Of a stretch of DNA of 64,000 nucleotides, positions 30,729-30,858 are shown piece after piece; position 1 is the stretch's first letter; each line of letters begins with the position of its first letter. The DNA comes from Luteimonas sp. MC1750 (GTDB lineage: Bacteria; Pseudomonadota; Gammaproteobacteria; Xanthomonadales; Xanthomonadaceae), in the NCBI RefSeq assembly GCF_016615955.1, contig NZ_CP067113.1, positions 1,674,001 through 1,738,000 of the forward strand, read 5' to 3'. Under the pieces are notes generated by a model. That model had not been told where the DNA came from, ran no database searches, and saw only the letters and a list, made by a program, of their open reading frames with translations. The translations under genes and the position numbers were made by a program.

Positions 30729-30858
30729 CGAAGCCGAAATGCCGGCGCCCGCGAGAGCGGGACGCTGCGGGGTCGGGATGGACAGCGCACATGGATGTGC
30801 GCGGAAGGCGCTTCAGCCATGGATGGCTGATGCGCCGGTCCATCCCGACCCCGCAGCG
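30729..30858 (+). repeat. Structured three-way-junction repeat, copy 1
   Basis: The box CGAAGCCGA (30729-30737) is followed by the hairpin CCCGC-GAGA-GCGGG (30748-30761). A perfect 21-bp outer stem comes next: arm 30763-30783 starting CGCTGCGGGGTCGG, pairing with 30838-30858. Inside the stem are two hairpins: GCGCACA-TGGA-TGTGCGC (30785-30802), and GGCGC/GCGCC (30807-30811 with 30832-30836) enclosing CAGCCA-TGGA-TGGCTG. It lies between the divergent genes fumC and purB, so it is not a simple terminator. Two further copies at 54219-54355 and 54436-54564 share the architecture with different stem sequences. Confidence 0.8.

Follow-up and report, generated by a model that had tools for sequence, protein, structure and literature searches.

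Dispersed two-hairpin RNA repeats in Xanthomonadaceae as candidate docking platforms for CsrA/RsmA

CsrB, CsrC and RsmX/Y/Z are few-copy small RNA genes. As described in PMC7652899, they present several GGA-loop hairpins able to sequester CsrA/RsmA, and we compare our elements with them by how they would work. For Xanthomonas, the account of RsmU published in 2020 reports no CsrB/RsmX/Y/Z homologue; RsmU itself, from a genus related to ours, is an RsmA-binding RNA with GGA motifs, but it derives from the 3'UTR of one gene, is reported to be limited to Xanthomonas and to lack an Rfam homologue and, in that account's description, is not portrayed as a repeat (PMC7694677). REP/REPIN/BIME and SMAG sequences, as summarized in PMC3733652, are dispersed intergenic palindromes, often in inverted pairs and variable between strains, the REPs being 20-40 bp long and tagged by GTAG (or CGTC), those of the GTAG kind also being linked to a RAYT, whereas our elements are three-way junctions of about 100 nt. 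Pneumococcal BOX elements are likewise structured dispersed repeats, some of them transcribed, but they are streptococcal and their abstract names no CsrA-type loop (PMC3049150). Closest in design is Rfam family RF01731 (TwoAYGGAY), introduced in a list of 2010 (Weinberg et al. 2010), where one main-text table row grades it "probably" an RNA and "probably not" cis-regulatory, and places it in human gut, gamma-Proteobacteria and Clostridiales (PMC2864571). Its Rfam type label is Cis-reg, i.e., it is not filed as a repeat. CsrA binding of TwoAYGGAY was proposed in 2014 in a text that mentions tandem GA pairs in one of its stems and likewise proposes Bacillaceae-1 RNA as a CsrA binder (PMC4333381); we saw the latter RNA adjoining a 5S rRNA gene in Lysinibacillus (locus L270, 7540-7607, minus strand).

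All three copies that a first-pass annotation had placed in the 64-kb window of the Luteimonas sp. MC1750 genome (the window being the whole stretch of DNA that was analysed) were found there (Table 1). Each consists of a long outer helix that carries two hairpins, typically with ANGGAN-type loops. Copies 1 and 2 are the same element (A), copy 3 is a diverged relative (B), and copies 2 and 3 are arranged divergently, their 5' ends facing. Every copy, on either strand, folds with an energy 7.7 to 10.7 sd lower than that of dinucleotide shuffles, none of 200 shuffles being as good. The annotated outer stems of 21, 21 and 26 bp without mismatch hold for the two A copies, but the third is 27 bp long; the CGAARCCGA box is present in all three copies, and the motif recurs at five additional places in the window. 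A small hairpin, annotated for every copy, accompanies copies 1 and 3, but the predicted fold at copy 2 is larger and less clear. As annotated, most inner hairpins have TGGA apical loops (five of six, hairpin 1 of copy 2 having CGGA). Copy 1 does lie between divergent genes, one of them purB (+); the other, labelled fumC, is a class II fumarase/aspartase-type gene (-) that falls below the curated fumC cut-off. Copies 2 and 3 are flanked by mtnA (-) and gyrA (-).

Table 1. Positions of the elements and their parts in the 64-kb window.
Feature	Position	Strand	Details
Copy 1, full extent	30729-30880	+	
Copy 1, 5' box	30729..30737	+	CGAAGCCGA; sequence
Copy 1, small hairpin	30748..30761	+	CCCGC-GAGA-GCGGG; predicted fold
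Copy 1, A element	30763..30858	+	RF01731 53 bits; model R2 106.1 bits
Copy 1, outer stem	30763-30783 / 30838-30858	+	21 bp
Copy 1, hairpin 1	30785-30802	+	loop ATGGAT
Copy 1, hairpin 2	30807-30836	+	loop ATGGAT
Copy 1, 3' box	30872..30880	+	CGAAGCCGA; unreported in first-pass annotation
-10-like TAGAAT directly upstream of purB	30907..30912	+	comparison of purB loci
Copy 3, full extent	54219-54355	-	
Copy 3, B element	54219..54336	-	R2 84.3 bits; below RF01731 threshold
Copy 3, outer stem	54310-54336 / 54219-54245	-	27 bp
Copy 3, hairpin 1	54285-54304	-	loop ATGGAT on - strand
Copy 3, hairpin 2	54255-54276	-	loop ATGGAT on - strand
Small hairpin 5' of copy 3 (B)	54337..54350	-	CCGACAACGGTCGG; predicted fold
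Copy 3 (B), 5' box	54347..54355	-	CGAAACCGA
Spacer separating the facing 5' ends of B (copy 3) and A (copy 2)	54356..54435	no strand	
Copy 2, full extent	54436-54577	+	
Copy 2, 5' box	54436..54444	+	CGAAGCCGA
Copy 2, A element	54469..54564	+	RF01731 52.5 bits; R2 106.4 bits
Copy 2, outer stem	54469-54489 / 54544-54564	+	21 bp
Copy 2, hairpin 1	54491-54508	+	loop ACGGAT
Copy 2, hairpin 2	54513-54542	+	loop ATGGAT

RF01731, at its gathering threshold of 43 bits, matched four places in the Luteimonas sp. MC1750 genome, and copies 1 and 2 pass that threshold. Copy 3 had no RF01731 match over threshold, and 20 further loci found with our own models R1 and R2 (18 from 12 other genera, two from the same genus) gave zero Rfam matches; neither these loci nor the window matched the CsrB/CsrC/RsmX/Y/Z families of Rfam. 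Sub-threshold microRNA-family models that matched the long GC-rich stems were taken as chance. By the annotation's own refuting condition, a match to an already named family, the claim of a new structured element is therefore upheld only in part: the A copies are members of RF01731, and the wider design lies outside that family's coverage. The core motif is not new, since Rfam had already named it, and CsrA binding had been proposed in print.

Members of RF01731 and our elements share two AYGGAY-loop hairpins atop a long outer stem, the window hairpins having ATGGAT in five of six cases and ACGGAT in the sixth. In Lachnospiraceae, RF01731 reaches 78-98 bits with the same design and is also multi-copy (eight in six loci of one MAG); in the examples examined, however, the outer stem is interrupted and its sequence shared, whereas in Xanthomonadaceae it is a near-perfect helix of free sequence, often accompanied by GAAGCC-type boxes and a divergent partner. 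Multiple RF01731 copies also occur in L253, L248 and other Lachnospiraceae RUG115 loci and in MAGs of Gastranaerophilales (L208, L230), the two copies in L253 and in L248 being divergent and ~1 kb apart. Judged by title and abstract opening, no open-licence paper was found that describes these elements as dispersed CsrA-site repeats. As far as these searches show, what is new is the dispersed multi-copy state in Xanthomonadaceae, together with the boxes, the arrangement in divergent pairs, the breadth of the distribution and the strand-specific signs of selection on RNA.

Models built from the copies found more of them, both in MC1750 and in related genomes. R1, built from ten Luteimonas-clade copies, recovered copy 3 in the MC1750 genome (E 1e-6) and matched 23 genomes among the 398 searched in the order, of which 22 belong to Xanthomonadaceae. 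It also found, weakly (E 0.05 to 3.8), four MC1750 copies of a second subfamily that R2 scores at 47-59 bits. This subfamily has the same design (L078-L081, contig C1 at about 2285566, 2625444, 2095757 and 2517895), with a CCGAAGCCG box 5' in all four and an opposite-strand partner in two (L078, L079). R2, whose 32 source matches lay outside the A set and came mostly from other genera, recovered the window A copies at E about 1e-16 and, with the best nine candidates scored per genome, matched at least 188 of 395 family genomes in at least 24 of 54 genera; the 207 genomes without a match among their best nine candidates are weak evidence of absence. Named records with matches include Luteimonas, Pseudoxanthomonas, Stenotrophomonas, Lysobacter and Tahibacter. 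A 180-base stretch spanning an element in another genome of the genus (L102) recurs without change in Luteimonas endophytica RD2P54 (L209). When 150 candidates were scored in each of 24 chosen genomes, R2 gave 6 to 141 matches per genome, which may count an element on both strands; for the richest genome, G575, we therefore report 71 distinct elements in 40 regions (124 kb). Removal of overlapping weaker matches (37 of 108 from G575 and 3 of 141 from the second set) reduced 249 model matches to 209, which comprise 188 distinct sequences and 157 distinct arm pairs. In one draft genome (G304), the elements of L083, L104, L390, L392 and L396 are no more than about 400 bases from a contig end, a position expected for repeats or hard hairpins.

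The loops of the elements are CANGGANG, i.e., of the CsrA/RsmA hexaloop type: the ANGGAN hexaloop is described as recognised by CsrA/RsmE and also RsmN, and the loops come close to the CsrA consensus obtained by SELEX, RUACARGGAUGU (PMC7652899, PMC3791407). At least two CA(N)GGANG sites occur in 175 of 188 distinct elements, the first two lying 23-32 nt apart (median 28), and all of these spacings fall inside the 10-63 nt that a CsrA dimer is quoted as bridging, best above 18 (PMC7652899). Under a strict rule (loop stem of at least five pairs), 129 of the 188 elements have two or more GGA hairpins, 57 have one and two have none. The base preceding GGA varies (T 189, G 67, C 21, A 12), but the one following it is not free: 270 of 289 sites have T there. 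Hairpin 1 is closed by a C-G pair in all but one of 133 aligned rows (132). A csrA gene was present in 23 of 23 genomes searched, and at one of ten csrA loci scanned, in G575, csrA is followed at a distance of about 400 bp by an element (L342, 2059-2164, minus strand). The elements thus have the ANGGAN hexaloops of CsrA/RsmA-binding RNA, and we predict that they bind the protein. An insertion has removed the second GGA loop from some variants in genomes G061 and G003: in L038 and L111 (G061) and L062 (G003), the loop of hairpin 2 is replaced by a multi-hairpin sequence of roughly 90 nt, and the sharing of this insert between two loci of one genome and one of the other indicates that copies exchange sequence or multiply.

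For stems that drift in sequence yet stay paired, the first-pass annotation had offered two causes, selection on an RNA or DNA fold and correction of the palindrome. Among 18 gap-free aligned A copies (17 distinct), 97.5% of cells were paired against 88.2% in shuffles, 17 of 38 pairs were changed on both sides against a shuffled mean of 7.0, and the covariation score was 0.268 against 0.090; none of 500 shuffles reached these values, and sliding the copies by 1-3 columns lowered pairing to 30.5-46.1%. Across genera, in 133 distinct rows of an alignment that was fitted to the model and retains three overlapping weaker matches (L002, L003, L391), 91.9% of cells were paired (55.1% shuffled, about 35-42% slid), 1701 cells were changed on both sides (504 shuffled), and the score was 0.801 (0.168 shuffled); at this depth 40 of 41 pairs show changes in both arms, hardly more than in shuffles (37.7), and it is the other measures that carry the signal. 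Covariation is thus strong both in the A copies and across genera.

Template switching or repair between the arms would also keep them complementary, without selection, and would suit stems of up to 32 bp that remain nearly perfect despite drift, as well as the B elements upstream of purB in L111 (G061) and L011 (G013), where the inner hairpins are lost and a plain palindrome is left. Such correction is strand-symmetric, however, and predicts equal numbers of G-T and A-C pairs. Read on the GGA strand, the 18-pair outer stems of the 157 distinct arm pairs (arms chosen by Watson-Crick pairs only) hold 2703 Watson-Crick pairs of 2826, 78 G-T, 12 A-C and 33 others, so that the annotated compensation of every stem change, true of the window copies, does not extend to all relatives. 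Counted by distinct contexts, G-T to A-C is 56:12 (p 6e-8); it is 15:2 in G575 alone, 63:10 in the remaining elements, and 12:3 in 20 A copies located through a sequence pattern instead of a model (including L038 and L111, whose arms are identical), figures to be read knowing that a model may admit G-T over A-C and that related sequences are not independent. Matching substitutions in the flanks were balanced at 53:49 (67 elements, G575; Fisher p 4e-5 against the stems), which also speaks against a transcriptional mutation bias as the source of the excess. Taken arm by arm, G575 outer-stem columns gave about equal GU-type and AC-type variants (13:10), as expected if most changes are compensated, and support neither side. 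An excess of G-T on the GGA strand beside balanced flanks indicates selection on the RNA strand rather than symmetric correction: it is the RNA fold of the GGA strand that is under selection, which narrows the annotated RNA-or-DNA alternative to RNA. Correction, which also leaves the conserved loops unexplained, may still contribute but is very unlikely to be the main cause. In six orthologous A copies upstream of purB, the outer stems differ by one to six pairs changed on both sides and still contain an A-C mismatch doublet and four G-T pairs; exchange between copies could alter stems, so these differences are not proven step-by-step compensations. Counting G-T against A-C pairs is a simple test of RNA-level selection against a DNA palindrome that can be applied to any repeat family.

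Elements are rarely found between divergent genes. Around 73 units (crude ORF caller; 19 units without a neighbour dropped, four seemingly inside an ORF, one locus, L100/L329, represented twice), the flanking genes were convergent in 28 cases, tandem in 39 and divergent in six (convergent versus divergent p 0.0002), and single elements beside tandem genes showed no preferred orientation (eight co-oriented, 11 opposite). This skew would be expected of a structural 3'-end element whose long hairpins halt exonucleases or transcription from either side with no need for CsrA, but avoidance of promoters yields the identical skew. No T-tract follows the elements, the sole terminator-like site being the 5-bp small hairpin beside copy 3, so the annotation's doubt about a plain terminator stands; moreover, the purB copy does sit between divergent genes, and a purely structural role would leave the three-way junction and the two conserved GGA loops at near-fixed spacing unexplained. 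We consider it unlikely.

The Cis-reg label of RF01731 and the position of both window sites upstream of housekeeping genes would fit a cis-regulatory leader of the downstream gene. However, the -10-like site of purB is TAGAAT in 18 and TAAAAT in 10 of 30 loci, with and without an element, and at gyrA the element likewise precedes a -10-like TAGAAT, one that relatives have whether or not they carry the element (by eye, in 12 of 30 loci). Lying upstream of these sites, the window elements are probably not leaders of purB or gyrA, and the purB copy is probably placed upstream of the leader. A scan with an E. coli-like consensus, of limited weight here, found no promoter-like consensus at either window site. 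Nor is either placement constant: the gyrA-side pair was present in one of 30 gyrA loci, that of MC1750 itself (model search; 52 genomes with a match), and the purB copy in six of 30 (five recognised by the model, the sixth, an altered copy, by eye; loci from among 50 matching genomes). A leader role is thus highly improbable. Orthologous sites thus differ, some carrying an element and others lacking one; by eye, the intergenic sequence of the empty gyrA site looked too diverged for the unit ends to be placed against it.

Close elements are mostly divergent pairs: among 68 pairs of distinct neighbours within 700 bp, 55 were divergent, 13 tandem and none convergent. Sense GAAGCC-type boxes lie within 70 nt on the 5' side of 81 of 187 elements (10.4 in mononucleotide shuffles) and within 45 nt on the 3' side of 92 (6.5 in shuffles), antisense boxes in only 22 and 10, respectively. 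The spacers of paired units vary, and GTAG-type REP sequences occur in many of 14 G575 units examined. These features, together with the dispersed copies and their presence and absence among close relatives, are those of the main rival to our reading, a selfish REP/MITE-like DNA repeat whose loops, boxes and hairpins serve recognition by a single-stranded-DNA transposase, with the CsrA likeness incidental and no gain to the host. Copy number varies widely and 207 of 395 family genomes lack a match among the nine candidates scored, so that no fixed dose is needed, and such unevenness fits a selfish repeat too. The elements themselves are not REP/REPIN palindromes, however, being about 100 nt long with GAAGCC-type boxes near the feet in about half of the 187 (GTAG at the feet was judged by eye only). 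None of eight Y1_Tnp loci examined (of 11 matches) carries an element within 1.5 kb, and three of the six Luteimonas genomes with A copies have no Y1_Tnp (PF01797) match (G013, G016, which is 89% complete, and G061), so mobilisation by a RAYT is not supported. In addition, the bias of G-T over A-C needs selection on the RNA strand, and the freely variable loop base is the very position that the CsrA/RsmE consensus leaves free. We therefore regard a purely selfish DNA repeat as doubtful, if still deserving of attention; the two views would be reconciled if the repeat turned CsrA binding to the benefit of its own RNA. A blastn search of phage and plasmid collections with 156 bases gave no match, which carries little weight for sequence so diverged.

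Other repeats were also noticed. A long palindromic repeat with motifs TCATGTCCCCC and CTCCTCCTTGACTTCCC occurs in intergenic regions of Luteimonas (L003, L144, L148), its L003 example lying in the MC1750 genome upstream of the element at 527385, and in L170 a Y1 transposase gene is accompanied by inverted copies of a GGGGTCAGAGTGCAATTTC repeat that bears no relation to the element.

The reading that we favour, at a probability of roughly 60%, is that this dispersed RNA repeat of Xanthomonadaceae/Lysobacteraceae is a transcribed two-site platform for CsrA/RsmA, with a local effect and titration. Elements would be transcribed within longer RNAs, by read-through past genes in either direction (B-sense RNA, e.g., could arise by read-through of mtnA), and because pairs are divergent, a transcript crossing either way would carry one sense element. 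The two hairpins, ~28 nt apart via the junction, may dock on both faces of one CsrA/RsmA dimer, while the long outer helix would insulate and stabilise the platform, leaving its own sequence free to change so long as pairing is kept. The net effect is likely to be local, on the stability or decay of mRNA 3' ends, with additional titration of RsmA/CsrA in high-copy genomes, and the repeat may spread by copying of the unit. The weakest step of this mechanism is the sponge or 3'UTR role. Compared with CsrB/CsrC/RsmX/Y/Z, the elements have two sites each and many dispersed copies.

A more ambitious version, in which a mobile RNA module plants CsrA/RsmA docking sites as a distributed sponge and 3'UTR tag in place of the CsrB/RsmZ-type RNAs reported missing from Xanthomonas, is tentative: the sponge would be made up of two-site platforms in divergent pairs, which in some species number dozens per genome. 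If it is true, the Lachnospiraceae copies, being of the same design, would raise "CsrA-site repeats" to a class of genomic repeat of their own. Should the elements bind RsmA/CsrA, insertion of a repeat, which differs even between sister species, could rewire both the targets and the free level of a global regulator, and the elements would be a direct candidate for the RsmA-antagonist RNAs of the family.
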